Assembly (NCBI GenBank): GCA_017445925.1
Contig: JAFSRW010000052.1
Location: 24,648 to 88,647, forward strand
Direction: 5' to 3'
Origin: Bacteroidaceae bacterium
Lineage (GTDB): Bacteria > Bacteroidota > Bacteroidia > Bacteroidales > Bacteroidaceae
DNA length: 64,000 bases
The position numbers were made by a program, and so were the translations under genes. Below are positions 24,018 to 42,918 of the stretch, piece after piece (position 1 is the first letter of the stretch; the number at the start of each line of letters is the position of its first letter). Below the pieces are notes generated by a model. It made no database searches, had not been told where the DNA came from, and was given only the letters and a program-made list of their open reading frames with translations.

Positions 24018-24048
24018 TTTGTCCGAATGGAATTTAATCATATTTTTG
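24018..24048 (+). promoter_or_regulatory. Sulfatase promoter
   Basis: TTTG (24018-24021), 19 bases and TATTTTTG (24041-24048) match the consensus exactly, 38 bases before the ATG. It points away from the two GH51 promoters. Confidence 0.8.
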
Positions 24049-24086
24049 CAGCATGAAGCCTATTCACAAAGGCAACACATCGAAAA

Positions 24087-25983: not shown

Positions 25984-26226
25984 CAACACCTAACCCGCTG
26001 AACGTTGAGTCACGATGGTTATCGCTTGTAACTGATGTTACCTGTTGTCGCAACAGGTCACTAACACCTCACTAACAGGTAACTTATTATAATCTCAACA
26101 TCATAATTGCATGAAGTTAGGTGTTGTGTTACCTGTTAGTTACCTGTTGAGCAAACAGGTAACACTGCCTAACGCCGATAACCATCGGCTTTCAGCATAT
26201 GTCAGGTGAGGTGTTACCTGTTTTTT
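25984..26226. repeat. Multi-hairpin element of nested inverted repeats
   Basis: Several perfect inverted repeats overlap here: CAACACCTAAC (25984) with GTTAGGTGTTG (26116); CGATGGTTATCG (26013) with CGATAACCATCG (26176); AACACCTCAC (26063) with GTGAGGTGTT (26206); GCTGAA (25997) with TTCAGC (26191). The 10-mer GTTACCTGTT occurs at 26037, 26128, 26139 and 26213, and its complement at 26074 and 26154. The pair 26139-26148/26154-26163 is a perfect hairpin with a 5-base loop. The element ends in six Ts on the plus strand. No gene is present. It could be a structured RNA, a non-autonomous mobile element or a protein-binding array. Confidence 0.75.
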
Positions 26227-26233
26227 AACCTTG

Positions 26234-26392
26234 AACCATAATTGTTCCGTAAGTTCGTAAATCCGTTGCTCCGTGAATCCCTTAACCCTTAACCTTGAAC
26301 CCTTAACCATAAATCTTCCCTCTTCCTTCTTCCCTCTTATCCCTAAACCATAATTGTTCCGTAGATTCGTAAATTCGTAGTTCCGTGAATCC
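26234..26392. repeat. Imperfect direct repeat of 47 bases
   Basis: Two copies, at 26234-26280 and 26346-26392, both begin AACCATAATTGTTCCGTA and end TCCGTGAATCC. Between them lie pyrimidine-rich runs (cttaaccctt, ttccctcttcc). Nothing here is coding. Confidence 0.7.
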
Positions 26393-26419: not shown

Positions 26420-26450
26420 TTTGCTCATATTAAAAAAAGTGTTAAATTTG
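26420..26450 (+). promoter_or_regulatory. Promoter of the six-gene surface-protein operon
   Basis: TTTG (26420-26423), 19 bases and TAAATTTG (26443-26450) match the consensus exactly. This leaves a leader of about 115 bases before the first ATG. It is the only good promoter seen before the operon's end at 40147. Confidence 0.75.
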
Positions 26451-26573: not shown

Positions 26574-29500
26574 ATGAAACGTAATCCATTGTGGCTTATT
26601 GCTGCTGTGATATTTTTCGGTTGTAGCGAGCAGTTGAGCGAGGTGCTGGTTTCTCCCGACTCATTGCCCATTAATCTGACAGGCTCCATTAACCAGCAAA
26701 ATGTAACGCGAGCTAATGAACAGGGCTTCGTTACAGGAGACCGAATGGGCATTTACATTGTTGATTATGTAGATGGACAACCGGAACAGATTTCCACCGA
26801 CAATCGAGCCTCCAATGTTATCTATACCTTCGATGGCGAGAACTACCGTTGGACAGCCCCTACCACCATCTATTGGCGCGACAACACCACCCCCGTCGAT
26901 GTCTATGGTTACTACCCCTCTGCTAATTATATCAGCGACCCCACGGCCTACCGTTTCGAAGTCAGTGAGGACCAAAACTTGCAGCGTGAGGGAGAAATGG
27001 GCAATTACGAGGCATCAGACTTTCTTTGGGGCAAGACAACAAATGTGTCACCAACTACCGAAGCCATCATCGTACGCTACTCGCATCGTCTCGCGGGCGT
27101 ACGTGTTCATTTGATTAAAGGTGAAGGGATGACGGACACTGAGTGGGAGAAGTTGCCACGTCTTGTCACTATTGATAATACCGTGCGCATAGCCACCATA
27201 GACCTCTCTACTGGTACTGCTACACCTTCTGGCAGTTATGACCACCCGATACGTATGTTGGAACAAACAAGCGACTATCGTGCTGTCGTAATCCCACAGA
27301 CCGTTGAGGCAGGCAAGGCTCTTATCAGCATCACCATCGATGGTATTAGTTATAGCCACAAGATAGCCTCACCCATGAATTATCAGGCGGGCAAGCTCCA
27401 TAACTTCACTATCTCCGTAAACAAGAGCGAGGCTACAGGCGATTACTCCATCAGCGTCAGCGATGACGGCATAACAGACTGGGTAAACGATGAAGCTTCT
27501 CACCAGTTCTCCGCTCAGGCATACGTTGTTGTCCACTGCGACAAATATGGAACCTTGAAAGATTGTATCACCCGTGCAGGACTGGACTATAAGACCATTC
27601 AGAACCTGAAAGTGACAGGAGAGGTTAATGATGTTGACTTTAATTTGATAAACGGTGAAATGTCAGAATTAAAGCACCTGAACTTGAAAGACATAAAAAT
27701 AAAACACGTATATCATTCTTATTGGACTAGCGATGACAACGGTTCGTTAGTAGAGTATTATATAGACGACGAACTACCATCAGGTGCTTTCTATGGTAAC
27801 AAATCTATCCGATCCATGATACTCCCTTCGTCATTGAAGGAAATAGGTGGTGATGCTTTTCGTGAGATGCGATTGATGTACTCTACCCTGGAGATTCCTG
27901 AAGGGGTGACTAAAATTGGTGGGTCTGCTTTTGCTTACAATGAATATAATGGGGTTGAATTGATATTGCCTGCGACAATTGACACGATTGAAGGGGCTGC
28001 CTGTGCTGATTGTGGATGGAAATGTGAACTGAAACTGACAGATAATATTAAATATATTGGTGGAGATGCTTTTGGCGGATGGTATGGTGGATGCCCTAAT
28101 TTTTATGGGGTATTTCATATTCCTGCACATCTGACTGAATTGAATGAACGCATTTTTTCAGGTCTGGGCAGCAATGGTTCCTTTACTGGCGAATTGGAAA
28201 TTCCTCAAGGTTTTTCTGTTATTCCATATAATGCTTTCGGTGTCTCTTTAAAGAACCGTGTACCATTACGTATTCCACAAGGAGTGAAGCGCATTGAGAC
28301 CCAAGCATTCCCATTATTAAGTAGTATTCATTTTAATGATGATTTAGAAGAAATAGGGCATGGAGCCTTTTATGATGGTTCTTTTTATTTTCCTATCGAA
28401 CTTCCCTCTCAATTGCGGATATTAGGTACACGTGCTTTTTGGAATGCCAGAATAGAAGGAGTTTTAGCAATTCCGGAATCATGTTTATCCATAGAGGAGG
28501 GAGCTTTTAGCTTAAATAATATCACGAAGGTTATTTTGCCCAGTAAATTAGAAAATATAAGCGCAGAAATGTTTTGTGGGTGTGGTATGCTGAAAGAGAT
28601 TTCGATTCCAAAATATGTTGAGTTTATTGATCGAAATGCTTTTACTGGTTGTGGCGCTTTGCAAACCATCATTTGTTTAAATCCAGAACCTCCAGCATTA
28701 GGAACGGATGTTTTTCATGCAGGAGAAATGTATTCAACTTGGTCAGATATTGGGGTTGATTTTGATAAATGTATTTTACAGGTCCCAGAAGCCTCTATTG
28801 AAGCCTATCGCCACGCTGACGGATGGAATGAATTCAAAAACATCACACCTTATCGTGAATTAGCTTTCAATATCCCAGAGATAGTTGCACTTGACAAAGG
28901 CAGCACCCTTGAAGGTATCCTTCGTGCCGAAGGTGCTTGGGAGGTCAGCGAATGTCCAGACTGGGTAATAGTTTCTCCAACCAGTGGAACCTATAAGGAA
29001 GAACTGACAGTTACTGTTAAGCCTATGAATTATGAAGGAGAACGTGACGGCCGTATCGTGTTCCGCCTGAAAGAGAAAGACTACACTTACTATACAACTG
29101 TTCATCAGTACAACTCGGCTGAGTATCGTGAAGACGAAACGTATGTACTCCAGCAGGCCTCGGCAGGAGCACCTCAAGAAGTTCCTCTTTTTATCGTTGG
29201 TGAAGGATATACAGCCGAAGAAATCGTTTCGGGTCAGTACCTGAGTGACATGAAAGAGCAGATGGAACATCTATTCAGCTGCGAACCCTACAAGACCTAT
29301 CGCAACTACTTCACTGTCAGCACTGCCATAGCCTGTTCTCCTGAGCATGGTTTGGATGGCCGAACACGATTCGATAGCGGCATTGATTACTACAATTGGC
29401 TATTCTATACTGACGAAAATCGTGTGTGGGAATATGCCGAAAGTCATGCCAAAGGTATCAATGGTGGCAGCCATAACCGGACGGTGGTGATGATGTTGAT

Positions 29501-30029
29501 GAATACCAACCAGCTACCCAATGCCGTTAAATTGGCGGATGACGGATATGCATTGGCTATGTTGGGCAAGAGTAATGACGTTTATCCGTTTGATCAGCGA
29601 GATTTAGTGTTACGTGATCTTGGTGGTCGTGCATTCGGCCATTTGGCAACTGAAGCAATCAACCATTTTACTTTTCTAAATGCCTGCACGTGTCCAGGAT
29701 GCCGAGGATGGGAAGATTATCAGCATGCAAAACGTCTCGGATGGTTTGAAAACATTGCTACTACTGGCAAAATGAACGAGGTACCTTGGAGCCACCTTAT
29801 CTTTGAACCTAAGTATGCTGCATACGTGGATATGTATGAAGGAGCATACAATCATGCCCGTGGCACCTATCGTTCAGAGAACATGAGTGTAATGGGTAAT
29901 GTACCCATTCCGTATTTTAATACCATCAGCCGTGAGAGCATTGTTCGTAGAATAAAAAGATATGCTGGTCAAACCTTCTCTTTTGAAGATTTTATGGTTA
30001 ATGACAAAATAGAAATACCAGAGGAATGA
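26574..30029 (+). CDS. Giant lipoprotein: fimbrillin-like, LRR, BACON-like, inactive M64 peptidase domain
   Basis: 1,151 residues. Lipobox IFFGC puts the lipidated Cys at 17. Residues about 40-290 are fimbrillin-like (TRANEQGFVTGDRMGIYIVDY; VYGYYPSANY; YEASDFLWG). About 410-720 are BspA-type leucine-rich repeats (ILPSSLKEIGGDAF; LEIPEGVTKIGGSAF). A BACON-like domain follows (WEVSECPDWVIVSPTSG), then a domain matching peptidase M64 of the two downstream paralogues. Where they have HEAGGH and DE, this one reads R1014-D-L-G-G-R1019 and T1026-E, so all candidate zinc ligands are gone; it is probably a non-catalytic homologue. First gene of the operon; the next starts 31 bases later. Confidence 0.9.
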   Translation: MKRNPLWLIAAVIFFGCSEQLSEVLVSPDSLPINLTGSINQQNVTRANEQGFVTGDRMGIYIVDYVDGQPEQISTDNRASNVIYTFDGENYRWTAPTTIYWRDNTTPVDVYGYYPSANYISDPTAYRFEVSEDQNLQREGEMGNYEASDFLWGKTTNVSPTTEAIIVRYSHRLAGVRVHLIKGEGMTDTEWEKLPRLVTIDNTVRIATIDLSTGTATPSGSYDHPIRMLEQTSDYRAVVIPQTVEAGKALISITIDGISYSHKIASPMNYQAGKLHNFTISVNKSEATGDYSISVSDDGITDWVNDEASHQFSAQAYVVVHCDKYGTLKDCITRAGLDYKTIQNLKVTGEVNDVDFNLINGEMSELKHLNLKDIKIKHVYHSYWTSDDNGSLVEYYIDDELPSGAFYGNKSIRSMILPSSLKEIGGDAFREMRLMYSTLEIPEGVTKIGGSAFAYNEYNGVELILPATIDTIEGAACADCGWKCELKLTDNIKYIGGDAFGGWYGGCPNFYGVFHIPAHLTELNERIFSGLGSNGSFTGELEIPQGFSVIPYNAFGVSLKNRVPLRIPQGVKRIETQAFPLLSSIHFNDDLEEIGHGAFYDGSFYFPIELPSQLRILGTRAFWNARIEGVLAIPESCLSIEEGAFSLNNITKVILPSKLENISAEMFCGCGMLKEISIPKYVEFIDRNAFTGCGALQTIICLNPEPPALGTDVFHAGEMYSTWSDIGVDFDKCILQVPEASIEAYRHADGWNEFKNITPYRELAFNIPEIVALDKGSTLEGILRAEGAWEVSECPDWVIVSPTSGTYKEELTVTVKPMNYEGERDGRIVFRLKEKDYTYYTTVHQYNSAEYREDETYVLQQASAGAPQEVPLFIVGEGYTAEEIVSGQYLSDMKEQMEHLFSCEPYKTYRNYFTVSTAIACSPEHGLDGRTRFDSGIDYYNWLFYTDENRVWEYAESHAKGINGGSHNRTVVMMLMNTNQLPNAVKLADDGYALAMLGKSNDVYPFDQRDLVLRDLGGRAFGHLATEAINHFTFLNACTCPGCRGWEDYQHAKRLGWFENIATTGKMNEVPWSHLIFEPKYAAYVDMYEGAYNHARGTYRSENMSVMGNVPIPYFNTISRESIVRRIKRYAGQTFSFEDFMVNDKIEIPEE

Positions 30030-30060
30030 ATGAACAATTCATAATTAACAAATAAAAATT

Positions 30061-33000
30061 ATGAAGAGATATAAAGAATTTGTGTGTTTATCTGGCTTTT
30101 TGCTGGCCGCTTGTGCCGACCAGGATATAGTGCAAGATAATCCGAACAGTGGCGATGCAATGGAGTTGCGGGCAGAAATCAGCCAGCAATATACCACCCG
30201 TGCCAATGATGGTGGTTTTGCCGATGGTGACCAAATTGGCGTTTTCATCGTGAATTACAAGAACGACGAGACTCAGCCACTCCAACCAACTGGCAATCAT
30301 GCGGATAACGTGCGCTTCACATACGATGCGACTACGGGTAAGTGGACGGGCAGTTATCAAATTTATTGGAAGGATAAGACTACACCCATAGATGCATATG
30401 GTTACTATCCCTTTGATGCAGAGCTGAGTAGCACCCAATCCTATCCATTCAGTGTGCAGCAGAACCAACGTGACCCAATGAAAACCGGACGCAAGCTCAG
30501 TGGCTATGAACAGAGTGATTTTTTATGGGCGAAAAGAGAGGGCGTTTTTCCCACTGCAGGAGCTGTCACCCTACAACATCATCACTTGATGGCTGGTGTT
30601 AAAGTTGTACTAACAGAGGGAGATTTCTTTGACGATGGAGAATGGAACAATCTTGAAAAAACCGTCCTCGTAGAGAATACCATCACAGAGAGTACCATTA
30701 ATCTGCAAACTGGTGTTGTCACCCCCATTGGTACTACTACGGGAACAATAACTCCCCTCGCCTCTGGGAGAGGGGCTGGGGGTGAGGCTTCTTTCCGTGC
30801 CATCGTCATTCCCCAAACCATTGCGGCAGGAAATACCTTGTTCTCCATTACCATTGATGGCAAAAGCTATCAGTTTAAGCGCGAAGAATCAATGATTTAC
30901 TATCCTGGCAAGTTGCACCAGTTTACTTTCGAGGTACAGAAGTCATTAGAAACAGGAGACTTCCTGTTGAATCTTATCAGCGAGAGCGTCACTCCTTGGG
31001 AGAACGACACAGATAGCCATAATGGAACGGCGCGGGAATATATAACTGTACATGTCGAGGAAGGACAATACTTGGGTGATGTTATCGAACAAATGGGACT
31101 TGACCCAGAAAAGATTGTAAACCTAAAACTTACTGGCTGTATCAGTGAATATATTGCTGGCTATCTTTTTGAAAATGAACCATATTATGCTTCTGGAGCT
31201 GAGAGTTTCTATTATATCAGGGACAATATGACCAATCTTGAAGCTGTGAACATGAAAGAACTACGCACCAAAAACATGAGAAGCTATGCAAGTTTATGGG
31301 ATGGCAGCTGGATTCTCGACGACCGTGGTGAACCATTATGTGATGCTTATGGCCATCCCATACATGCTGATGATTATATCCCATCTTATGCTTTAAGTGA
31401 AGTCAATACGTTGGCGTACGTAGTTTTCCCAGATAGTTTGAAGGGTATTGGTGATGCCGCTTTTCTTAATACAGGACTTAGGGGGGCTCTTATTTTACCC
31501 GAAGGCTTGAAACACATCGGTGGAGAAGCATTCCGTGGACAGAGGTTGCTCACTGGCGACCTCCACATTCCATCGACAGTAGAGTATATCGGAGGGGGGA
31601 GCTTTTATGAATGTAACTTCACCAACGAACTGATTTTGCCTGAACATATGGTTTATTTAGGTGGACAAGCCTTCGGAAATTGCAAATATATGACAGGTTC
31701 AATTCATATTCCTGACGGCTTGGATGAAGTTAACCGTTCCTGGCCCGATCAAATAGGTGGCCCTGCAATTATTCCTCAAGGGGTAAAACGTGTAAATGGT
31801 ATTGGACGTGGCATCACTTCTGTATATATTCCTAATGGTGTTGAAGAGATAGGTGAGGAAGCCTTTTGTGAGTATTCAAAACTGACAGGAAAAGTGCATA
31901 TTCCTTCGACTGTGAAGAAAATAGGAGGAAGTGCTTTCCGCTCATGGGGATGTGTTCCTATTACACATGTGGATTTGCCAGAAGGATTAGAAATCATAGA
32001 AGAATTTACCTTTTATGGTTGTTCCTTCCTACAGGATACAATAGTTATTCCTTCCTCTGTCAAGCAAATCGGGGATCATGCTTTTGGCAATTGTCACATG
32101 TTGAACGCAATTATCCTACCTGCAGGATTGGAGGGTATCCAGGGTGATGCTTTTGGTGGATGTTTTTCACTTGATTATATCCAGTGCATGGGTTCAACAC
32201 CACCTATTATAGAAGAGAATACCTTTAGTGGCGTGGAGAAAAACAATTTTACGGTGGTGGTTCCTGAAGGTGCTGTAGAGGCATATAAGAATGCTGATGG
32301 CTGGCGAGAGTTCAAACGTATCTCAACTTATCGCAATTTTGTCTGCCGTCCCACGAAAGCCAAACTGCTCAACAAGAGTAATATACGCGATATCATTCTC
32401 AATGCCGATGAGGCTTGGACAGTAAAGGAATGTCCCTCGTGGGTACACCTGGACAAGACTTCTGGATATAAGAAGACGGAACTGAAAGCTACTATCGACG
32501 CTATGGCTCACGGAGCTGGTGACCGTGAAGGGAATGTGGTGTTCCAACTTAATCGTAATGACGAAGACGGCAATCCCATCACTTGTACATTCCAGATTCA
32601 GCAGTTTGATTATGAGATTGATGAGGATGCTACAGTGACCTTCCAGACTGCTACCAAGGGAAAGCAAGGAGGTATAGACATTCTGCTTGTGGGAGACGGA
32701 TACGATGCAGAGGATATTGCCCGTGGGGTATATCGTTCTGACATGGAACAAGAGATGGAATATTTTTTCGGAGTTGAGCCATATAAGACTTATCGTGAGT
32801 ACTTCAATGTACATGCAGCTATGGCCATGAGCTATGAGAGTGGCGTAGTTGATTCACCCGATAAATGGCGAAACACAAAATTCGAAATCACATATGGTGC
32901 AGGTTATAATGAGCGACTACTTGTAGATTTTGACGGCATAGCCAGTTATGTGTTGGGTGATATCACTTCTTGTCCTGTCACCTCTGGAAATTTTGGGCGA

Positions 33001-33660
33001 TCTTTGGTAATCTGTGTGCCTAATAGTAATGCATACGAAGGATTGGCCTGTTTGTACACCGACGGGTCTGCCATTGCAATATGCCCACATAGCACATGGG
33101 ACTATCCCTACGATGCTCGCGGTATTATTCAGCATGAAGCTGGCGGTCACGGATGGGGCAAGTTAGCTGATGAGTATATCTACCATCGTGCCCTGATACA
33201 AGCCTGTGGTTGTGACTGTTGTGGCCATGTGGAAGCTGTGGAGTCTATGCACGCTCTGGGATGGGGACGTAATCTTTCACTCGACGGAAAATATAAGAAT
33301 GTACCTTGGACACATCTCATTTTTGATCCCCGTTATGGTGACATCGTGGATATTTACGAAGGTGGGTACATGCATTCTAATGGTATTTTTCGTTCTGAGT
33401 TTAACTCTTGCATGAATGATAATGCTCCCTATTTTAGTACATGGTCGCGTCAGCTCATTGTTGAACGGATTCTTTGGGCAGCAGGTGAGATATTTGATTT
33501 TGAAACATTTGTGAGTAAAGACAGCCGCGAATGGGGCAAAAAATTCATAACACGTGGTGTAACTGATACGCCATGGCACCAGGTTAAGGCATACCATAGC
33601 AAGGGACATGGTCCTATCATCCGTAAGGGAAGTCCAAAAGATTATTTAAGAAATAAATAA
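30061..33660 (+). CDS. Giant lipoprotein: fimbrillin-like, LRR, BACON-like, peptidase M64
   Basis: 1,199 residues with lipobox LLAAC (Cys18). Fimbrillin-like region about 45-300 (TTRANDGGFADGDQIGVFIVNY; YGYYPFDA; YEQSDFLWAK). LRR array about 450-740 (VFPDSLKGIGDAAF; VHIPSTVKKIGGSAF). BACON-like WTVKECPSWVHLDKTSG, then DILLVGDGYDAEDIARG, the M64 entry. The catalytic motif is H1025-E-A-G-G-H1030 followed by D1037-E1038, and NSCMND may be the Met-turn. An in-frame GC-rich palindromic element (30753-30790, TPLASGRGAGGEAS) sits in the fimbrillin-like part. Predicted to be an anchored surface protease; its target is unknown, though characterised M64 enzymes include an IgA protease. Confidence 0.9.
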   Translation: MKRYKEFVCLSGFLLAACADQDIVQDNPNSGDAMELRAEISQQYTTRANDGGFADGDQIGVFIVNYKNDETQPLQPTGNHADNVRFTYDATTGKWTGSYQIYWKDKTTPIDAYGYYPFDAELSSTQSYPFSVQQNQRDPMKTGRKLSGYEQSDFLWAKREGVFPTAGAVTLQHHHLMAGVKVVLTEGDFFDDGEWNNLEKTVLVENTITESTINLQTGVVTPIGTTTGTITPLASGRGAGGEASFRAIVIPQTIAAGNTLFSITIDGKSYQFKREESMIYYPGKLHQFTFEVQKSLETGDFLLNLISESVTPWENDTDSHNGTAREYITVHVEEGQYLGDVIEQMGLDPEKIVNLKLTGCISEYIAGYLFENEPYYASGAESFYYIRDNMTNLEAVNMKELRTKNMRSYASLWDGSWILDDRGEPLCDAYGHPIHADDYIPSYALSEVNTLAYVVFPDSLKGIGDAAFLNTGLRGALILPEGLKHIGGEAFRGQRLLTGDLHIPSTVEYIGGGSFYECNFTNELILPEHMVYLGGQAFGNCKYMTGSIHIPDGLDEVNRSWPDQIGGPAIIPQGVKRVNGIGRGITSVYIPNGVEEIGEEAFCEYSKLTGKVHIPSTVKKIGGSAFRSWGCVPITHVDLPEGLEIIEEFTFYGCSFLQDTIVIPSSVKQIGDHAFGNCHMLNAIILPAGLEGIQGDAFGGCFSLDYIQCMGSTPPIIEENTFSGVEKNNFTVVVPEGAVEAYKNADGWREFKRISTYRNFVCRPTKAKLLNKSNIRDIILNADEAWTVKECPSWVHLDKTSGYKKTELKATIDAMAHGAGDREGNVVFQLNRNDEDGNPITCTFQIQQFDYEIDEDATVTFQTATKGKQGGIDILLVGDGYDAEDIARGVYRSDMEQEMEYFFGVEPYKTYREYFNVHAAMAMSYESGVVDSPDKWRNTKFEITYGAGYNERLLVDFDGIASYVLGDITSCPVTSGNFGRSLVICVPNSNAYEGLACLYTDGSAIAICPHSTWDYPYDARGIIQHEAGGHGWGKLADEYIYHRALIQACGCDCCGHVEAVESMHALGWGRNLSLDGKYKNVPWTHLIFDPRYGDIVDIYEGGYMHSNGIFRSEFNSCMNDNAPYFSTWSRQLIVERILWAAGEIFDFETFVSKDSREWGKKFITRGVTDTPWHQVKAYHSKGHGPIIRKGSPKDYLRNK
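30753..30790. repeat. GC-rich palindromic element inside the second giant lipoprotein
   Basis: TCCCCTCGCCTCT, GGGAGAGGGGCT and GGGGGTGAGG fold on themselves and are read in frame as TPLASGRGAGGEAS. The two paralogous genes have unrelated residues here, so the element is a later insertion. Confidence 0.85.
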
Positions 33661-33687
33661 AACAAGGAATCAGCGAAAAAAAAAATT

Positions 33688-36600
33688 ATGCGTAACAATC
33701 ATACTTTATCAATTTTACCTTATATATTTGTCGTCCCAGTATTGATGGTTATGATAGAGGCGTGTTCTGAGGATAGTTTTTCCTCCATGATCAGCAATGA
33801 TTTGAGGCATCCCATTCATCTGTCTTCAGTATATCCTTCTGTGGATGTGCTGACACGAGCCACGATTGACGGTGGTTTTGTGAGCGGGGATGCTATGGGT
33901 ATCTTTGTGGTTGACCGCAATGCTGACGGTGAGGCCGAAACTCCAACGCTGGGCAGTGGCCGTGCCTCGAACATGAAGTTCACCCTTGGAGAGGATGGCA
34001 CATGGAAGGGATCTGCACAACTTTACTGGGATCCAAAGGGAGCCGCTGCAGATTTTTATGGATACTACCCGTTTGATGAAAATATGTCCTCTGTGACAAA
34101 CTATGAATTTACTATCAATCCGCAACAGAGAGCAGAAGGGACCAACGGATACAATGCCAGTGATTTGCTATATGCGCGGAAGGAGAATGTTGAACAGACG
34201 GTGGAGACTATTTCTTTACAATACAAGCACCTGATGGCAGGCGTAATGGTAAGATTAGAAATGGGTACAGGTTTTTCCTCTACAGAATGGACCGAACTGG
34301 AAAAGACGGTACTGCTTAGAAACACCATCACAACGGGACATGTAAACCTTGCAACAGGCGAAGTGCAAGTTTCTACCGAAAGCGAGTCAAAAGACATCTT
34401 ACCTCTGACACACAATGGCACGTGGCGGGCTATAACTTATCCTCAAACAGTTGCATCTGGCAAAACGCTCATTTCTGTCACTATTGACGGCCAAAGCTAT
34501 GCCTTGAAAAAAGACGTCGCTATGACATTCCTTTCAGGAAAGATGCATACGTTTACTATCACTGTCGATCGCCATGAAGCAGGAGGACAGTTCACCTTCT
34601 CATTTAGCGATGAAGCCATAACACCTTGGGCGGAGGATGCAGAACTTCATGAGGGACTGGTACGTGAGTATGTCGTGGTGGAGGTAAGTGCCCCAGGAAA
34701 TCTTGCCAAGGATCTTGCCAAGATGGGACAAGATTACACTAGTGTGGAGGGGCTGAAGATTATAGGAACCGTGAACCAGTCGGATATAGACTTCCTTTCG
34801 GAGATGCGACATTTGACAGACCTCAACATGCAGAAGTGCATTATTGAAGGAGGTGTGCTTGCGGGGTTGGGTGCTGCTACTCAAATGCCGGTAAAACATT
34901 TTGTTTTCCCTGAGAAAGGAGTTAAGACCATAGGATATGATTTTCTCTCACGTTCAAATCTTTCAGGTTCGCTGATGATTCCGGAAGGTGTGGAACGTAT
35001 AGAGGAAGCTGCATTCAGTGAATGCAAATTCCTGACGGGGGCCCTGTCTTTGCCTTCAACGCTCAAATACATTGGCTCTGGTGTTTTGCAATACTCGAAC
35101 ATTCATAGCGAGTTGCGTTTGCCAGATGGGTTGGAAGAGTTTCACGGACTAGGAGGATTTTATACTGGGGAGTATTACATACCATCGTCCATGAGATATA
35201 TGTCGAGTGGTTTGCCAACTACACTGACAGGTACGCTTTATTTCCCGCAAGGTTTGGATTTGGGGCCGATTGGTGGTTTCCTTTTGGATGGCTGTCAGTG
35301 TACGTCGGCCGTTTTTCCCGAGGGCATGACGGGTGTTCCTCGTTTGGTTAATTCAGAGTTAAGAGGTGAGGTGAAACTTCCTTCCACTGTAACCCGAATA
35401 GGAGGAATGGCCTTTATGAACACCAAAATCACCAAAATCATCTTCCCTGAGAACCTTAGAGAACTTGACGATTCTGGTTACTTGATGGAAGAGGGTATTT
35501 TTGCAGGTAGTCGGTTAATGGGTACGATTGAGCTTCCGAAGAAAGTGGGAAGGATTCCTCGTAGTTGCTTCCGTGACTGTGTTGGAATCACGGGGTTAGT
35601 GTTCCCCGAAGGAGTACTGATGATTGATGAATACGCCTTCGCCGGATGTATAAGTCTAAATGGTATTGTCTGTGAAAGCGAGGAACCTCCTCTTGTGGCA
35701 GGTAATGCTTTCCTCGGTGTACCAAAAGATAACTTCACAGTAGAAGTTCCGAAGGGATGTGTTGAGAGATATCGCAACGCACGTGGTTGGAGCGACTTTA
35801 AACGCTTCGCTGAGTATTCCAATTTTGTGTGCCGACCAGCGCAGGTGTGCGCTTTAAATTCCGTACACAGTGAAGATATGGTGCTGAATGCTGATGGACC
35901 TTGGACGGTAGCCCGTAGACCTGACTGGTGTACACTCTCAAAAGAGTCCGGTACGGGTAAGACCGCACTGACAATAAATATCCTGCCTCTCTCACATGGT
36001 GCAGGAGCAAGAGTAGATACGCTTGTGTTTACAATGCAGTCAGGCGGTAAGACCATAGAAACCAGCTGCGTACTGCGTCAATATGACTATGAACATGAGG
36101 AAGACAGCTACATCATGCTACAGAAAGCTACGAAGGGCAACAACGGTGGCATTGACATTGTATTTGCTGGTGACGGTTTCGATGGAGCATCCATAGCTGA
36201 TGGCTCTTATCTTGATTTGGTGGAGTATCAGACAGAATGTTTCTTTGCGGTGGAACCTTACAGGTCTATGCGAAAATACTTCAATGTATATGTTACTTTC
36301 CCTCTATCACAAGAAAAAGGAGTGAACACGATGTACACCTACGTGAATAATCGTTTTGGTACTCTTTATGGCATGAACGAGTTGACGATTTCTGATATTA
36401 CATCAACCGCTCTGATTACAGAAAGTGATGAGGTGATGGATTATGTGGTAGAGAAAACGCCTGTGAAGCGCGAGAACTTGTGGCGTACAGTAACAATCCT
36501 TGTACCGAATTCTACCGATTACGACGGGAATACAGAGTTTATGGAAAACGGTGCAGCTTTGAGCATTTGCCCACCTTCTGATAAACCTTATCCAAAGGAT

Positions 36601-37164
36601 ACACGTGGTATTATTCAACACGAGGCTGGGGGGCATGGTTTTGGAAAGTTAGGTGATGAGGAGATTGTATGCAATAAATTTGCTCCCTTAGAAATCAAAC
36701 GGCATGTGGAAGATATGCATAGAAGAGGATGGTATCAGAACCTTGCCACCACGGGTAAGCTTTCACAGGTACCTTGGGCAGAGTTTATATTTGATCCAGC
36801 CTACTCCGATTATGTAGATGTTTATGAGGGAGGTTACGGCTTTACACGTGGCATATATCGTCCAGAAGCCAACTCGTGTATGAACTATGGTATCCCTTAT
36901 TTTAATACCCCCAGTCGCTTAGCTATATACTGCCGTATCAAAGAGTATGCAAGTGAGGGCTGGAGCATGGATGAGTTCCGCGCACAGGATACTTTCGAGT
37001 GGGGGCCGACCATGGTAACACGTGCAAATGAAAGTGATTTAGAAGGCTTGGTGACATACGCCAATGGCAACCACATACAACCACGTATCATGGACTTCAA
37101 ACGCATTGGTGATGAAGTACGTAGCATACGTTTGAAACTGAAAAATGAAAGAATGAATAAATAA
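33688..37164 (+). CDS. Giant lipoprotein: fimbrillin-like, LRR, BACON-like, peptidase M64
   Basis: 1,158 residues with signal and lipobox MVMIEAC (Cys26). Fimbrillin-like region about 55-300 (LTRATIDGGFVSGDAMGIF; FYGYYPFDENM; YNASDLLYARK). LRR array about 410-680 (MIPEGVERIEEAAF; KLPSTVTRIGGMAF). BACON-like WTVARRPDWCTLSKESG. M64 domain: DIVFAGDGFDGASIADG, then H978-E-A-G-G-H983 with D990-E991, and NSCMNYGIPYFNTPSR as probable Met-turn. The domain order is the same as in the two upstream genes, and the catalytic motif is intact. The C-terminal tail (LKLKNERMNK) partly comes from a repeat-like aaaatgaaagaatgaa run. Confidence 0.9.
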   Translation: MRNNHTLSILPYIFVVPVLMVMIEACSEDSFSSMISNDLRHPIHLSSVYPSVDVLTRATIDGGFVSGDAMGIFVVDRNADGEAETPTLGSGRASNMKFTLGEDGTWKGSAQLYWDPKGAAADFYGYYPFDENMSSVTNYEFTINPQQRAEGTNGYNASDLLYARKENVEQTVETISLQYKHLMAGVMVRLEMGTGFSSTEWTELEKTVLLRNTITTGHVNLATGEVQVSTESESKDILPLTHNGTWRAITYPQTVASGKTLISVTIDGQSYALKKDVAMTFLSGKMHTFTITVDRHEAGGQFTFSFSDEAITPWAEDAELHEGLVREYVVVEVSAPGNLAKDLAKMGQDYTSVEGLKIIGTVNQSDIDFLSEMRHLTDLNMQKCIIEGGVLAGLGAATQMPVKHFVFPEKGVKTIGYDFLSRSNLSGSLMIPEGVERIEEAAFSECKFLTGALSLPSTLKYIGSGVLQYSNIHSELRLPDGLEEFHGLGGFYTGEYYIPSSMRYMSSGLPTTLTGTLYFPQGLDLGPIGGFLLDGCQCTSAVFPEGMTGVPRLVNSELRGEVKLPSTVTRIGGMAFMNTKITKIIFPENLRELDDSGYLMEEGIFAGSRLMGTIELPKKVGRIPRSCFRDCVGITGLVFPEGVLMIDEYAFAGCISLNGIVCESEEPPLVAGNAFLGVPKDNFTVEVPKGCVERYRNARGWSDFKRFAEYSNFVCRPAQVCALNSVHSEDMVLNADGPWTVARRPDWCTLSKESGTGKTALTINILPLSHGAGARVDTLVFTMQSGGKTIETSCVLRQYDYEHEEDSYIMLQKATKGNNGGIDIVFAGDGFDGASIADGSYLDLVEYQTECFFAVEPYRSMRKYFNVYVTFPLSQEKGVNTMYTYVNNRFGTLYGMNELTISDITSTALITESDEVMDYVVEKTPVKRENLWRTVTILVPNSTDYDGNTEFMENGAALSICPPSDKPYPKDTRGIIQHEAGGHGFGKLGDEEIVCNKFAPLEIKRHVEDMHRRGWYQNLATTGKLSQVPWAEFIFDPAYSDYVDVYEGGYGFTRGIYRPEANSCMNYGIPYFNTPSRLAIYCRIKEYASEGWSMDEFRAQDTFEWGPTMVTRANESDLEGLVTYANGNHIQPRIMDFKRIGDEVRSIRLKLKNERMNK

Positions 37165-37172
37165 GCAATACA

Positions 37173-38048
37173 ATGAAAACAAAGAATCTTATTTGGGCTG
37201 TAATGACACTTGCAATGAGTGCATGCAGCAATGACTTCGAAGAGAACAGCCCCACTATAGAGGAGGGCGAAATCCAGCTGGAGTTCATATATCCAGGCAC
37301 CTCTCGTGCCACTGATACTCAGTTTGAGGCAAAAGACCGTATTGGCGTTTTTGTAACTGCTGAGGGTGAAGCTCTGCAGATTGGAGGGAATGAAGTAAAT
37401 AACGAACTTTTTATTTATAATGGTTCGTCGTGGACAGGGTCACGTAAGGTATATTGGAACAACGGGAAACACGATGTGTATGCGTATTATCCATACGGGA
37501 AAAGCATTAACGACATAAGTAACTATAGTTTTACTTTGCAGACCGATCAAAATGCGACAGCAGATTCCGATGGTCTAACAGGTTATGAGAAGAGCGACTT
37601 CCTTTGGGCAAGTGTTAAAAGTGTGGCTGCATCCAATAGTCCGGTTAAGATGAAGTTTGGCCACAAAATGTCCAACGTCGTTGTTAAACTCATCAAGGGT
37701 GAAAATTATTCCGGAAATATTTCTTCTGCAACTGAAGTTTATATTCATAGTACAGTCACCAAGGCTTCTATTGACCTTTCTACAGGTGACGTCTCCAAAG
37801 ATGACTATGCAGGGGCAGGAAGTATACGTTGCCGCCAGCTTTCGGCTACAGAATATACCGCTTGCGTCGTTCCGCAGAACATCACATCGCGACGTCCGCT
37901 GGTTGAGGTAATCACGGGTGGTGTCAGCTATCTGATGGAAGGCAAAATTTCGCTGAAGCCAGGCTGTCGTCATACAATCACAGTGACCCTTGACAAAAAT
38001 CCGGAGAAGTTGAAGATAGAAATAGGCGGAGAGATTGTGGGGTGGTAG
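37173..38048 (+). CDS. Fimbrillin family lipoprotein
   Basis: 291 residues with lipobox AMSAC (Cys18). The sequence carries the fimbrillin pattern of the giant lipoproteins: SRATDTQFEAKDRIGVFV, VYAYYPYGKSI, YEKSDFLWASV, KMKFGHKMSNVVVKL and VVPQNI, and it ends in IEIGGEIVGW. It therefore corresponds to their N-terminal domain standing alone. Such proteins form or cap surface fimbriae in Porphyromonas and Bacteroides. It begins eight bases after the third giant gene, so the two are co-transcribed. Confidence 0.88.
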   Translation: MKTKNLIWAVMTLAMSACSNDFEENSPTIEEGEIQLEFIYPGTSRATDTQFEAKDRIGVFVTAEGEALQIGGNEVNNELFIYNGSSWTGSRKVYWNNGKHDVYAYYPYGKSINDISNYSFTLQTDQNATADSDGLTGYEKSDFLWASVKSVAASNSPVKMKFGHKMSNVVVKLIKGENYSGNISSATEVYIHSTVTKASIDLSTGDVSKDDYAGAGSIRCRQLSATEYTACVVPQNITSRRPLVEVITGGVSYLMEGKISLKPGCRHTITVTLDKNPEKLKIEIGGEIVGW

Positions 38049-38053
38049 AAAAT

Positions 38054-38088
38054 GAAGAGTGAAGAGTGAAGAATGAAGAGTGAAGAAT
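38054..38088. repeat. 7-base-period repeat between the two fimbrillin genes
   Basis: Units gaagagt, gaagagt, gaagaat, gaagagt, gaagaat. An in-frame ATG at 38073 lies inside it; the better start for the next gene is 38100. Confidence 0.8.
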
Positions 38089-38099
38089 TTGCTATCGCT

Positions 38100-38987
38100 A
38101 TGTTTAAGGCAAGATATATCGTTTTTCTGATGTGTGCCACGTTTTTTGTGGCATGCAGCAGCGAGGAGCCGCAAAGCCCTGAACCTGCAGACGATCGCAC
38201 GTCGGTGAATATCACTACACGTGCAGAGGATGAAAATACTGCTGGTAATATGCAAGCAGGTCTCTTTATGGTGAACTATCAGGACGAGAACCCTGATGAT
38301 TTGCTGCCTAATGACAATTATGTGAATAATCAGTTGCTCACATGGGCAAATGGGACTTGGACGACGACATCACCTATCTACTGGATTGGCATGGAAACAC
38401 GTGCTGACTTCTATGCATACGCTCCATTCGTAAGTAAGATAACGGATGCCCGTAAGATGCCTTTCAGCATCAGTTGCGACCAAAGTACAGATGAGGCTTT
38501 TGCACAGAGTGATTTACTTTGGGGAACGGTTTTGGGACAATCTCCAACATCTGCAAATTTTGAACTGACCCTTCAACACCAATTGTCTCGCCTTAGTATT
38601 GTTGTTACTGCCGATACAGGTTTTGAAGAAGGCGAGTTACAGGCCAGCGATGTAAGTGTCACCATTGGCGGTACAAAAACTGCAGCAACCTTCGACTTAC
38701 AGACAGCAGCTATAACCTTGGTTAGCGGTTCCACAGCTGATGTGAAATGCCATTCCGATGGTGACCTTACATACACAGCCATACTTCTACCTCAGCAAGT
38801 TCCCTTCTCTAACCTGATTCAGGTTGATTGGCAAGGAAATAAATACACCTTGCAGAACACCTTCACATTGGAAGCTCGTAGACAATATACGCTCAAAGTT
38901 AAACTGAAGAAGACTAAAAGCGGCTTTGATATCGGTATAGAAGGATGGGATATCATCCCTGAAGATTTTGGAGGCGTTGTCGGTTAA
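38100..38987 (+). CDS. Fimbrillin family lipoprotein
   Basis: 295 residues from the ATG at 38100; an extra nine residues from 38073 would come from a repeat (MKSEE). Lipobox FFVAC (Cys19). Fimbrillin features: TTRAEDENTAGNMQAGLFM, FYAYAPFVSKI, AQSDLLWGTV, LTLQHQLSRLSIVV and LLPQQVPFSNL. The end (IGIEGWDIIPEDFGG) resembles the end of its neighbour. It is more diverged than the other four fimbrillin-like domains of the operon. Confidence 0.85.
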   Translation: MFKARYIVFLMCATFFVACSSEEPQSPEPADDRTSVNITTRAEDENTAGNMQAGLFMVNYQDENPDDLLPNDNYVNNQLLTWANGTWTTTSPIYWIGMETRADFYAYAPFVSKITDARKMPFSISCDQSTDEAFAQSDLLWGTVLGQSPTSANFELTLQHQLSRLSIVVTADTGFEEGELQASDVSVTIGGTKTAATFDLQTAAITLVSGSTADVKCHSDGDLTYTAILLPQQVPFSNLIQVDWQGNKYTLQNTFTLEARRQYTLKVKLKKTKSGFDIGIEGWDIIPEDFGGVVG

Positions 38988-39034
38988 GTTGGAAGGCTAA
39001 TGCCATTTGATCTATAATGTAATTTTTTTAGAGC

Positions 39035-40147
39035 ATGAGATTTACAAAACTCTGTTTTATATTTATTTGTGCTTTTCTTTCTAGTAACATAAGAATTTTG
39101 GCGCAAAGTGATGATATTGAGATCGACGATAGCACATCTGTTGGTTGGGATGATGGCATTATCATCAAGCTTCGGGATCCTGTCACCATCAAAGCTAATA
39201 ATCTATCGATGGTTTATGGTGATAATCTTCCTGAACTTACTTATTCAACGGAGGGTGCTGCATTAGTAGGGCAACCAGAAATTTTTTGTGAGGCAACATC
39301 TACTTCACCCGTAGGTTCATATCCCATTATTATCCGAAAGGGCTCTGTACAGAATAGTAATGATAGCTACGTTAATGGTGTGCTGACAATTATTAAAGCA
39401 CCTTTGACTATAAGTGCAGGGAACTATGAGAAGAAGCAGTACGACCCAATGCCTGAGTTCGATGTTTCTTACGAGGGATTCAAGAATAACGAGACAAAAG
39501 ATGTGCTGACTAAACAGCCGATGTTGAGTTGTGAAGCAAATGAAGATAGTGCTCCAGGGGAATATGCTATTACTGTAAGTGGAGCAGAAGCCGACAACTA
39601 CCAGATACAATATGTTGGGGGTAAGTTGATAGTTACGGAACCTGATTCATATACCTTAACCTACATGGTGGATGGTGAGATTTATCAAAGCCTTAGCTTT
39701 AAGTATCGAGATAGTATTGTTCCTTTGGAAGCACCGACAAAAGAAGGTTATACCTTCTCTGGCTGGAGTGGTCTTCCAAGGTCAATGCCTGCCAATGACG
39801 TGATGGTTTATGGAAAGTTTACTGTGAACAGCTATATCGTTAGGTTCATGTACAGGGATGAGGTGCTTTATACGGAAGAAGTATTTTATGGAGCCCCCAT
39901 TCCATTACCAGAGCTTTATGATGATTATGGTCTGCTGATTAAATGGTTAGATGTTCCTGAGACAATGCCTGCTCATGATATTGTAATCCTGGTAGATGAG
40001 ACGGATGCAGTATTGAATATACAGGGAGAGAATAATGACAACATTAAGATTTATGACCTCAACGGACATCGTCTCGCATCTCCTCAAAAGGGCATCAACA
40101 TTATCCGTAAGAAGGATGGAACGTCAAGAAAGGTTTTGATTAAGTAA
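39035..40147 (+). CDS. Secreted MBG-domain and InlB B-repeat protein
   Basis: 370 residues with signal peptide ending RILAQ. Two MBG-type Ig-like domains (TIKANNLSMVYGDNLPELTY; TISAGNYEKKQYDPMPEF) are followed by two Listeria-Bacteroides (InlB B) repeats (YTLTYMVDGEIYQS; KEGYTFSGWSGLP; YIVRFMYRDEVLYTEE). The end, IYDLNGHRLASPQKGINI then RKVLIK, is the short tail of Prevotella-group exported proteins. All visible domains are structural, so it is probably an adhesin or stalk component. Last gene of the operon, 47 bases after the fimbrillin gene, followed by a hairpin. Confidence 0.85.
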   Translation: MRFTKLCFIFICAFLSSNIRILAQSDDIEIDDSTSVGWDDGIIIKLRDPVTIKANNLSMVYGDNLPELTYSTEGAALVGQPEIFCEATSTSPVGSYPIIIRKGSVQNSNDSYVNGVLTIIKAPLTISAGNYEKKQYDPMPEFDVSYEGFKNNETKDVLTKQPMLSCEANEDSAPGEYAITVSGAEADNYQIQYVGGKLIVTEPDSYTLTYMVDGEIYQSLSFKYRDSIVPLEAPTKEGYTFSGWSGLPRSMPANDVMVYGKFTVNSYIVRFMYRDEVLYTEEVFYGAPIPLPELYDDYGLLIKWLDVPETMPAHDIVILVDETDAVLNIQGENNDNIKIYDLNGHRLASPQKGINIIRKKDGTSRKVLIK

Positions 40148-40686: not shown

Positions 40687-42918
40687 ATGAAAAAGAAAGC
40701 TCTTCTTTCCTTTCTGGCACTATTGGGGTTGCTAACCGGAGCGTATGCCCAGGAAACCGTTACCTATACAATAGATAAGCAGAACGGCAAATTCACCGCT
40801 ACGAATGCGAGCGGTACTTGGGCCTCGGTGTGGACAAGCACCAATGGGCAACTGACATTACGTTCTAATGCAAATAATATGCAATGGAACGGCAACAACA
40901 TAGATGCGCGCTCTGGGACCGCAAAAAAAGCGACCTATACCGTTACTGCACCATCGGGTTACGAAATAGAAAGCTACTCGTTCCTGGCTAAAGCGCTGAG
41001 CAACAACCAGACGCTGACCGTAGATGGCGGCTCGGCAAAGACTATCACCTCGTCGGCTGCCACAAGGATTAGCGCCAATGGTTTGGCGGTAAACAGTTTC
41101 TCGTTCGTAATAACGGGAGACAATACTGGTACGCTGCTATCAAAATTCACCGTTACTGTTAAGGGAGACCCTATAGCCCACCTCTCTGCTACCAAGGTGG
41201 AGCAGGGAAAGGTTACGACAGGCATCGGCAATACAGATGTGGCTATCTTGCGTAGCACGCTTACCGTTGGCGGACTTTCAGGGGAAGTGAATCTGAAGGG
41301 CATAACGGGTAAGGTTAACGCTACCAATCTGAAGGATGTGAAGGCTGTGCGGGCTTACTTTGCCACCAATGCCCAGGAGCTTTATATCGACAAAGAGAAT
41401 TTGATGAAATGGCGTGAGAATAACGGAACACTATTTGCCGAAGGTAATATAGCGGAAGACGGCACATATACCATTACAGGAAATAAGAGCCTTACAATAG
41501 GTACACACTACCTGTGGATAGCCTTGGACATTGCAGAAACAGCACAGGAAGGCAATACGGTAGATGCTACCATCACATCGTACACCATAGATGATAAAGA
41601 ACAGGCTGAGCCCAATGGTAATCCTGCCAACGCAGCTACCATATTCCTGACAGAAAGCAGCGTGCTGATGCCTATGGATAAGGGAAGCCTCTATTACCGC
41701 ATCCCGGCTATCTGTACCACTGCCGATGGCAAACGCTTGGTGGTACTTACCGACGACCGCAAAGATCATAACGTGGACCTTCCCACGCATTGCTATGTGG
41801 TAGCGCAGTACTCCGAGGATAACGGCAAGAGTTGGACCGACCCCATTACCGTTGCCGGTACAGCAGGGACAGGTGGCGACTACGGTCACGGCGATGCCTC
41901 GCTGATTACCAACCGCATCAATGGTGATATCATAGGCATTATGACAAGCTCGCCCAACGGAACTGGCTTCTTTTCTTCAACGCCAGATAAGCCACAATGC
42001 TGGAAGACTATCATCAGCCACGATGGCGGAAAAACGTGGGAGACACCCATCGACCATACCAAGGAGTTGTACGCTGCAGGCAGTCCACACCCCAACTGGC
42101 TGGGTGGTTTCACGGGCTCGGGAGCAGGATTGCAGAAACGCGACGGCACGCTTGTATCGCCTTTTGTGAACCGTGAATCGCCCGATGGTACCAAAAACAA
42201 CGTGTCGCAGAACTACTACAACTTCATGTCGAAGGACGGAGGAAAGACTTGGTACGTAAGTGGCAAAAGCGGCACCACAGCAGCCGACGAGCCAAAGATT
42301 ATAGAACGCAACAACGGTGACCTTGCCATCAGCGTTCGCGCTAACGGCTTTAATTACTATAATGTAACATCTGATGATGGTGAAACGTGGAAGAATCCGC
42401 CACAGACTCGCTTCACGACGGGAATTAGCGGTAACGCTTGCGATGGCGAATATATGTACTGGTGCTCCACCCTCGACGGCAATCCTTGGAACATTGTTTT
42501 CCAGACGGGCCCCAACAATCCTCAGCGCCAAAACGTTTCCATCGCCCTTTCGACCGACGAGGGCGAGACGTTTGGTACACCCAAGACCATCTGTCCCTGC
42601 GGCTCGGCTTACAGCGCAGCTACCGTTCTTCCTGACGGAACCTTAGGTGTTTACTACGAGGAAGAAGGCGTATATGGCTGCTTCACTATGCGCTTTGTTC
42701 GTTTCAGCCTCAATTGGGCCAGCGATGGCAAGTATTCCTTTACGGAGGAGACACCCTTCCATCCCGTATCGGCCAACATCATAACTCCCGACGGCATGCG
42801 CAACGTTACCATGCAGACCCCAAAAGACAATGCCATTTATGATACCGCAGGACGTAAGCATCCCTTGGCACCCAAGAATAGCATATATATCAAGAACAGG
42901 AAGAAGAAATTAGATTAG
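40687..42918 (+). CDS. Exo-alpha-sialidase (GH33)
   Basis: A 743-residue exported neuraminidase that releases terminal sialic acid from host or mucin glycans. Signal peptide MKKKALLSFLALLGLLTGAYA. An N-terminal beta domain (about 25-165) and a BNR-associated domain (about 165-320) precede the six-bladed propeller. It shows the arginine motif YRIPAI and Asp boxes SEDNGKSWTDP, SHDGGKTWETP, SKDGGKTWYVS, SDDGETWKNP and STDEGETFGTP. The end (NAIYDTAGRKHPLAPKNSIY) is a variant of the short export tail. No sialic-acid catabolic genes are adjacent. A bidirectional terminator separates it from secDF. Confidence 0.93.
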   Translation: MKKKALLSFLALLGLLTGAYAQETVTYTIDKQNGKFTATNASGTWASVWTSTNGQLTLRSNANNMQWNGNNIDARSGTAKKATYTVTAPSGYEIESYSFLAKALSNNQTLTVDGGSAKTITSSAATRISANGLAVNSFSFVITGDNTGTLLSKFTVTVKGDPIAHLSATKVEQGKVTTGIGNTDVAILRSTLTVGGLSGEVNLKGITGKVNATNLKDVKAVRAYFATNAQELYIDKENLMKWRENNGTLFAEGNIAEDGTYTITGNKSLTIGTHYLWIALDIAETAQEGNTVDATITSYTIDDKEQAEPNGNPANAATIFLTESSVLMPMDKGSLYYRIPAICTTADGKRLVVLTDDRKDHNVDLPTHCYVVAQYSEDNGKSWTDPITVAGTAGTGGDYGHGDASLITNRINGDIIGIMTSSPNGTGFFSSTPDKPQCWKTIISHDGGKTWETPIDHTKELYAAGSPHPNWLGGFTGSGAGLQKRDGTLVSPFVNRESPDGTKNNVSQNYYNFMSKDGGKTWYVSGKSGTTAADEPKIIERNNGDLAISVRANGFNYYNVTSDDGETWKNPPQTRFTTGISGNACDGEYMYWCSTLDGNPWNIVFQTGPNNPQRQNVSIALSTDEGETFGTPKTICPCGSAYSAATVLPDGTLGVYYEEEGVYGCFTMRFVRFSLNWASDGKYSFTEETPFHPVSANIITPDGMRNVTMQTPKDNAIYDTAGRKHPLAPKNSIYIKNRKKKLD

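Follow-up and report, generated by a model that had tools for sequence, protein, structure and literature searches.

A conserved Bacteroidales gene cassette of fimbrillin, leucine-rich repeat, and M64-like domain lipoproteins, one of them a predicted pseudoprotease

The DNA analysed here (the window) is a stretch of 64,000 nucleotides (nt) of contig JAFSRW010000052.1 from a Bacteroidaceae bacterium, and the system in question is a run of six open reading frames (ORFs) within positions 26574-40147, all on the + strand. The first three encode giant proteins, designated FLM1, FLM2, and FLM3 in gene order, that join a fimbrillin domain, a leucine-rich repeat (LRR) array, a BACON-like domain, and an M64-like protease domain; two lone fimbrillins (Fim4 and Fim5) and a sixth ORF (MBG6) follow. 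The favored interpretation, given a probability of roughly 0.55, is that these genes form a surface cassette of gut Bacteroidales in which type V-pilin-like subunits display LRR adhesins and proteases, including a dedicated pseudoprotease. Type V pili are a major form of fimbriae among gut Bacteroidales, and no function is known for most gut fimbrillins.

Genes and features of the locus

26420..26450, +: promoter-like site TTTG-N19-TAAATTTG, found by pattern search 123 nt 5' of FLM1
26574..30029, +: FLM1 (position 1), 1151 amino acids (aa), fimbrillin-LRR-BACON-M64 lipoprotein, predicted pseudoprotease (ORF, Pfam, position-1 clade of 20)
26706..27482, +: FLM1 fimbrillin domain, Mfa_like_1, residues 45-303, starting at the TR site
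29106..30026, +: FLM1 M64-like domain, with no zinc site and no C-terminal tail
29613..29630, +: FLM1 RDLGGR replacing HEAGGH, with both zinc His and the catalytic Glu gone
30061..33660, +: FLM2 (position 2), 1199 aa, fimbrillin-LRR-BACON-M64, full zinc site
30196..30207, +: FLM2 T46-R47-A-N, with the Arg in a low-confidence loop past the N-terminal strand; resembles a type V pilin processing site
31183..32340, +: FLM2 BspA-type LRR array, approximately residues 375-760 (Pfam, model)
32602..33555, +: FLM2 M64-like catalytic domain (Pfam, model, Foldseek)
33133..33150, +: FLM2 HEAGGH (H1025, E1026, H1030), an HExxxH motif in a predicted helix
33163..33177, +: FLM2 LADEY, with D1037 at the third-ligand place, E1038, and Y1039 at the tyrosine-switch place; putative roles by comparison with IgAse (PMC12237041)
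33205..33228, +: FLM2 CxCxCCxH cluster, residues 1049-1056
33610..33657, +: end part of the basic C-terminal tail of FLM2, modelled as folded past a disordered linker
33688..37164, +: FLM3 (position 3), 1158 aa, fimbrillin-LRR-BACON-M64, zinc ligands present, Tyr and Cys cluster lost
36619..36636, +: FLM3 HEAGGH
37173..38048, +: Fim4, 291 aa, lone fimbrillin of type FIM-A (in relatives, directly 3' of the FLM run)
38073..38987, +: Fim5, 304 aa, lone fimbrillin of type FIM-B
39035..40147, +: MBG6, 370 aa, MBG/InlB-repeat protein, accessory, present in only some relatives

The intergenic gaps across the six ORFs are, in order, 31, 27, 8, 24, and 47 nt. A first-pass annotation, made from the DNA alone, had given gaps of 8-51; the close spacing stands, with a measured range of 8-47 nt. 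Its description of the giants as co-directional with two lone fimbrillins and an MBG/InlB protein agrees with the ORF map and Pfam, and the clustering is kept in other genomes. The single consensus promoter that it proposed corresponds to the site at 26420-26450, which follows the Bacteroides-type consensus; 11 such sites occur across the window vs 1.4 expected. The hairpin said to close the run is weak evidence, because the number of terminator-like sites found here hardly differs from chance (16 vs 12.3 expected, standard deviation 3.5).

Domain architecture

The annotation had placed a lipidated N-terminus, a fimbrillin-like domain, LRRs, a BACON-like domain, and peptidase M64 in the same order in three tandem genes, and both Pfam profiles and the predicted fold of FLM2 bear this out. 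Mfa_like_1 (PF13149) matches five proteins of the window with 173-197 bits (cut-off 27). The three giants also exceed the cut-offs in two of the other domain searches that it had suggested: LRR_5 scores 88-169 bits (cut-off 27.7), which identifies the repeats as BspA-type, and Peptidase_M64 (PF09471) scores 45.8, 53.1, and 32.1 bits in FLM1, FLM2, and FLM3, respectively (cut-off 26). For the BACON-like domain, the claim is upheld by profile in FLM1 (PF13004, 33.3 bits, cut-off 25), while FLM2 (15.3) and FLM3 (20.1) fall below the cut-off. The sixth protein matches MBG_2 and Flg_new.

FLM1-3 align end to end with a mutual identity of 32-37%. Because identity is only this high over nearly the whole length, and the position-1 copies of 20 loci form one clade, a recent duplication or an assembly artefact is ruled out. 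Every module is of a known kind. The annotation knew of no described system with this architecture, and the open-licence papers searched gave no description of the combination, of the HExxxH branch of the protease domain, or of the retained pseudoenzyme.

Relatives and gene neighborhood

With the three protease domains as queries, a search of 84,980 genomes, each representing one species, yielded 110 candidates, the best 80 of which, from 79 loci, were kept. By record titles, 78 of the 79 loci belong to Bacteroidales and one is unplaced, and herbivore hosts are named for at least 42. The relatives include near-duplicates, such as L050 and L052. Within the window's genus, a relative at E under 1e-50 is present in 5 of 139 genomes (G000 among them), and 15 of 393 genomes (G000 included) in an order-wide draw match at E <= 1e-25.

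The order fimbrillin-LRR-M64 is found in 101/101 complete proteins longer than 1050 aa (98 relatives plus the window's three), a count that describes the nearer clade because the query was the protease domain and the best 80 of 110 candidates were kept. Excluded from it as shorter ORFs are the first copy at L043 (792 aa, no fimbrillin part, preceded by a separate fimbrillin gene), the ORF at L093 (484 aa), and two FLM genes that are each split into two ORFs (L097:6601-10020 and L064:6537-10008).

The first-pass annotation had also proposed a co-occurrence search for the gene order. In 81/81 judgeable cases, the first non-FLM gene 3' of an FLM encodes a fimbrillin-like protein in the same orientation, and 76 of these genes start no more than 60 nt away; the next gene at L050, one of the 81, runs off the contig and may itself be another FLM. 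The count omits L064, where the gene is split and the protease ORF is displaced by an overlapping ORF, and the contig ends at L030, L031, and L052. No fimbrillin lies beside an ordinary M64 gene in 40 loci with flanks of ~1.2 kb. The gene strings comprise (i) a single FLM followed by FIM-A (31 loci), (ii) the same with FIM-B also on the 5' side (17 loci), and (iii) triplets followed by FIM-A and, in four cases, by FIM-B and an MBG-like gene. Two further loci, L162 and L163, hold single fimbrillin-LRR-M64 genes, each between two fimbrillins.

Several relatives have additional parts. At L072, L081, L091, L092, and L099, the FIM-A protein 3' of FLM has an additional C-terminal part that brings it to 641-987 aa and at L092 resembles Fib_succ_major below threshold (26.1 bits, cut-off 33.9). 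Dockerin type I matches occur in proteins adjoining the cassette (L027:15369-16445, L033:560-2971), and single-copy loci such as L042, L045, and L047 share several 3' genes in similar order, including one for an LRR_5 protein of ~560 aa.

The order-wide draw also contains 19 places that are neither the window nor fimbrillin-fused, 16 of which were fetched (L146-L161). These distant M64-like proteins, retrieved using a profile built from HExxxH members, carry HExxGH in 14 cases, HExxH in one, and neither in one; five have an LRR match. They belong to a Bacteroidales branch of the M64 fold for which no name was found. Because distant relatives without a fused fimbrillin carry HExxGH, this form is more widespread than the fimbrillin fusion and probably predates it.

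Zinc site and protease domain

In the alignment, FLM2 reads HEAGGH and then LADEY, FLM3 HEAGGH and then LGDEE, and FLM1 RDLGGR and HLATE. The motif of FLM2 and FLM3, HExxxHxxxKxxD, is one residue longer than HExxH and differs from the M64 motif HExxHxxxGxxD. Two other M64 proteins of the same genome have HExxH followed by DE, as do all of the 40 ordinary M64 control loci, this pair included. In the solved structure of the IgAse of Thomasclavelia ramosa, the zinc ligands H539, H543, and D550 lie in HExxHxxxGxxD, E551 and three Cys hold a structural zinc, and Y552 is a possible tyrosine switch (PMC12237041); mapped onto FLM2, the corresponding residues are H1025, E1026, H1030, D1037, E1038, and Y1039. 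FLM2 has Lys1034 at the Gly place and Ser1116 at the first Met-turn place and retains Met1118. Of the structural zinc site, the Glu is present and the CPVC pair is replaced (FSTWS in FLM2).

The fold of the FLM2 protease domain was modelled from 80 sequences with a predicted local distance difference test score (pLDDT) of 90.8 and a predicted template modelling score (pTM) of 0.90. All 17 Foldseek matches in the PDB at E <= 0.001 are M64 entries, with E down to 1e-15. According to the excerpts of an EMBO J survey of 2025, M64 clusters keep HEXXHXXXGXXD except for two in which Glu replaces the Asp and one that lacks the catalytic residues, and HExxxH is not among these exceptions (PMC12402451). 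Because its zinc motif differs, the FLM domain is classed as an M64-related variant clade and not as a canonical M64 peptidase; an ordinary M64 enzyme is ruled out by the HExxxH motif and by the 40/40 controls with HExxH. An assignment as IgA protease was not adopted, as there is no evidence on the substrate and, in the excerpted literature, characterised M64 relatives vary in specificity.

The first-pass annotation had counted three M64 proteases. The M64 profile is indeed present in all three, but the site of FLM1 is lost and the HExxxH of FLM2 and FLM3 had been missed. Judged by these residues, FLM2 is one probable active enzyme, FLM3 an altered one with its zinc ligands intact, and FLM1 a predicted pseudoprotease.

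Position-specific copies and the retained predicted pseudoprotease

A protease tree was built from 127 of 133 hits, omitting pieces below 240 residues, L107 (a duplicate of L096), and L116. Positions were labelled by gene order, except at L050 and L054 (two copies on a cut contig), which were labelled by hand. Twenty loci, the window included, have a position-1 copy, and all three copies were scored in 17. The 20 position-1 copies occupy one side of a branch with support 100, and the 18 position-3 copies group with the contig-end copy L096. The 21 position-2 copies group with L108 and L110, which the script had labelled single as the loci are short; longer stretches (L164, L165) show triplets at both places.

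An active group chosen by motif would make invariance circular, and residues were instead counted by position, omitting L111-L115. At H1025, E1026, H1030, D1037, E1038, and Y1039, position 2 reads HEHDEY in 21/21 copies, and single copies keep H1025, E1026, H1030, and D1037 in 63/63 and the Tyr in 62/63. Position 3 has both His in 17/18, the Glu in 18/18, the Asp in 15/18 (two with Glu), and the Tyr in 0/18. Position 1 has lost H1030 in 19/20 and D1037 in 18/20, while most other invariant residues of the domain are retained. The connecting segment, which holds the CxCxCCxH cluster in FLM2, has at least three Cys in 21/21 position-2, 51/63 single, and 19/20 position-1 copies; in all 18/18 position-3 copies it has one Cys or none.

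These counts bear on whether the proteins are adhesins only, with HExxxH in an M64 fold unable to catalyse and all three protease domains acting as binding modules. The one-residue insert that breaks the M64 motif, the replacement of IgAse Gly547 by Lys in FLM2 and FLM3 together with the absent structural-zinc Cys, and the paralogue without a zinc site would fit such a role. It is nonetheless improbable, given that the ligands and the Glu are invariant at position 2 and in single copies, with the Tyr nearly so, at the very residues where position 1 drifts. In TldD, moreover, the catalytic metal is bound by HExxxH, a motif also present in DPP III (PMC5810440), and most of the distant relatives keep HExxGH, though they were found with an HExxxH profile.

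Selection on the protease domain was estimated with our own Nei-Gojobori script as nonsynonymous over synonymous divergence (dN/dS). For L027 vs L028, the values are 0.096/1.19 at position 1, 0.070/1.19 at position 2, and 0.096/1.42 at position 3; for L050 vs L052, they are 0.023/0.23 at position 1 and 0.007/0.16 at position 2. The remaining pairs are saturated at synonymous sites, except for L032 vs L035 at position 2 (0.122/1.51). On these values, the position-1 protease domain is under purifying selection. FLM1 as a decaying pseudogene is ruled out by its 1151 open codons and by the low protease-domain dN/dS in the two measurable pairs.

The positions also differ outside the active site. 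Position 1 ends 0-2 residues past the domain in 15/15 complete copies, and 84/86 other complete copies carry a C-terminal tail of 27-56 residues, the end of which is modelled in FLM2 at a pLDDT of ~80-84, past a disordered linker. In a FastTree phylogeny of 204 fimbrillin domains, the six roles (position 1, position 2, position 3, single, FIM-A, and FIM-B) need six changes, the minimum being five: position 1 (15 rows, support 98), position 3, and the singles can each be split off by a single branch, whereas two changes are needed for position 2 and for FIM-A and three for FIM-B. The triplet is old, the position-1 copies of 20 loci being a clade of their own in the protease tree.

Pilin features and predicted structure

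The lipobox Cys and an Arg or Lys at the place of R47 are present in 100/101 FLMs, the FLM2 reference included, and the odd row is gapped at both columns; besides the reference, the latter residue is Arg in 88 and Lys in 11. FIM-A has the Cys in 68/68 and the Arg/Lys in 68/68, and FIM-B in 34/35 and 32/35, respectively. The full-length AlphaFold2 model of FLM2 has a mean pLDDT of 88.5 and a pTM of 0.50; its alignment has 80 rows, with FLM1 and the copy of L038 as the only position-1 sequences. At the N-terminus, a strand (35-40) is followed by a loop (45-50, pLDDT under 50) that holds R47 and then by the fimbrillin core. As the structure prediction proposed in the first-pass annotation, this model gives fimbrillin, LRR, and M64 folds. 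By Foldseek, one part matches the fimbrillins 4k4k (TM score 0.70 by target length, which supports the fimbrillin fold) and 3ufi and, lower down, Mfa2 (5nfi) and the tip pilin Mfa3 (5nf4), and other parts match BspA-type LRR proteins and M64 enzymes.

In FimA, the N-terminal strand covers a groove until it is cut by Rgp, and the opened groove then accepts a strand from the C-terminus of the following subunit. In Mfa1 the cut falls after R49; which strand it donates is less well established, and its polymers survive sodium dodecyl sulfate at 60 C (PMC5954841). FIM-A ends 0-2 residues past the last aligned Trp column in 68/68, and FIM-B 12 residues past it in 29/35 (a 12-residue C-terminal tail). 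Because these ends are so short, neither type has an evident donor strand of the classical C-terminal kind. In FLMs, other domains stand where a pilin donor strand would be.

These ends, together with the lipobox Cys of nearly all FLMs, would suit plain lipid-anchored adhesin-proteases that work singly, the fimbrillin domain being a membrane-near spacer with neither strand exchange nor pilus. Such an arrangement is judged rather unlikely: an Arg or Lys in the exposed loop is as constant as the Cys in FLMs and FIM-A, and both the constant adjoining fimbrillin (81/81) and the role-specific fimbrillin groups suit subunits that fit one another.

The same adjacency, and the fusion of protease and fimbrillin in one protein, could also mean that the FLM protease matures the pilus by cutting the N-terminal loop of FIM-A, FIM-B, and the FLMs, replacing the gingipain of Porphyromonas. 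Many other fimbrillins carry the loop without such a protease, which counts against this role. The loop would moreover demand Arg/Lys specificity, and ThomasA, an M64 enzyme with a known site, cuts Pro-Val (PMC12402451); maturation of this kind is judged very improbable.

Surroundings of the cassette

A palindrome-rich stretch of ~240 bp 5' of the promoter (25985-26240) is a dispersed repeat: elsewhere in the same genome there are six nearly complete copies, 80-88% identical, besides several fragments. The cluster is flanked (21453-25670, 40687-42918) by an arabinofuranosidase-like protein, a sulfatase, and a BNR-repeat sialidase-like protein. The sialidase-like and sulfatase neighbors were not adopted as parts of the system, no like arrangement having been noticed in the relatives' gene maps, in which most genes are unprofiled. 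The proteins at 39035-40147 and 40687-42918 both end in a short IYD-type stretch, which resembles a Bacteroidales sorting tail; no sorting-tail match was returned by Pfam for either protein or by NCBIfam for the one at 39035-40147.

Proposed mechanism

The first-pass annotation had suggested a surface-assembled protease system. This is partly supported: the pilin-precursor features and the conserved clustering agree with it, one probable active enzyme takes the place of three proteases, and surface assembly and proteolysis may proceed as follows. An FLM would be made as a lipoprotein precursor with its N-terminal strand ahead of the exposed Arg/Lys loop. A cell-surface protease is expected to cut this loop, as Rgp does on FimA and Mfa1, and strand exchange would then link the cut fimbrillin domain to that of a partner. 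Because the C-terminus carries the LRR array and a metzincin-type protease as cargo and cannot donate a strand, FLM would be a tip-type pilin, located at the tip of the assembly with its N-terminus equipped to accept a strand. The other subunits would be FIM-A and FIM-B, linking FLM to the cell or to each other; this is the weakest step, neither having a classical donor extension.

The LRR array may then bind a target and the HExxxH protease act on the bound material. The single-copy form, which may be ancestral, has a lone predicted enzyme whose site is complete. In the triplet, position 2 keeps that site and would cut, position 3 has the zinc ligands without the tyrosine, and the position-1 pseudoprotease would probably bind the target, substrate, or a partner, as pseudopeptidases do elsewhere (excerpts of PMC11266112).

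Several observations weigh against this cassette model. The lipobox and the TR site may be general Mfa_like_1 traits, the ends of FIM-A and FIM-B lack an evident donor strand, and, because the full-length pTM is 0.50, the relative placing of the FLM2 domains is unpredicted. The 101/101 count pertains to a nearer clade and leaves out the shorter and split ORFs, the neighbor at L050 is truncated, and no fused fimbrillin was detected by profile in the 16 distant relatives (L155 being cut at its start). Identity is lower at position 1 than at position 2 in 6/7 locus pairs. At L038, the first copy (2975-6445) reads HEHDES and the third (10023-13445) REFNEA, which breaks the position rule; because the third copy reads REFNEA while the first keeps the site, this triplet too has one dead member.

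A more ambitious version has three paralogous tip pilins in fixed gene order forming one hetero-oligomer, in which the pseudoprotease presents or gates substrate for an HExxxH protease with a new type of zinc site that also matures the pilus subunits, with self-assembly independent of a gingipain. Taken as a whole, it is given little credence.

If the cassette model is true, type V pili are not merely adhesive and can carry enzymes, and the FLM cargo domain points to a biochemical assay. The cassette would also offer a natural series (a single enzyme; an enzyme with an altered enzyme and a pseudoenzyme) on why a dead protease persists. It points, in addition, to a branch of the M64 fold with HExxxH, of which the excerpts of two M64 papers from 2025 make no mention.

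Comparison with known systems

Type V pili, such as FimA and Mfa1-5 of Porphyromonas gingivalis and the fimbrillins of gut Bacteroides, share with the cassette (i) the Mfa_like_1 domain and fold, (ii) the lipoprotein precursor, (iii) the N-terminal strand and Arg/Lys loop, and (iv) several role-specific subunits. In contrast to these pilins, FLM has an LRR array and a protease domain as its C-terminal part, and the lone subunits of its cassette have no clear donor strand. Mfa5, a large type V accessory protein, has a von Willebrand domain and uses the type IX secretion system, unlike FLM (PMC5954841).

The M64 igalysins (BF3526, BACOVA_00663, and T. ramosa IgAse) resemble the FLM protease domain in fold, in the third-ligand Asp (FLM2 and FLM3), and in the Met of the Met-turn, and the M64 structures 3P1V and 4DF9 likewise have a beta-sandwich ahead of the catalytic domain (PMC12237041). 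They differ from FLM2 and FLM3 in that the latter have HExxxH, Lys for Gly, no structural-zinc Cys, another Cys cluster (FLM2), and a fusion to fimbrillin and LRRs.

TldD/TldE provides a parallel for an HExxxH enzyme beside an inactive paralogue, and in Escherichia coli TldE is needed for TldD activity (PMC5810440). The fold is unrelated, however, the third ligand is a Cys, and the E. coli pair is a heterodimer; Foldseek matches the FLM2 domain significantly to M64 entries and not to TldD. BspA-type LRR surface proteins share the LRR_5 array and include the solved relatives 4fs7 and 4fdw, while in FLM the array is the middle of a four-part protein.

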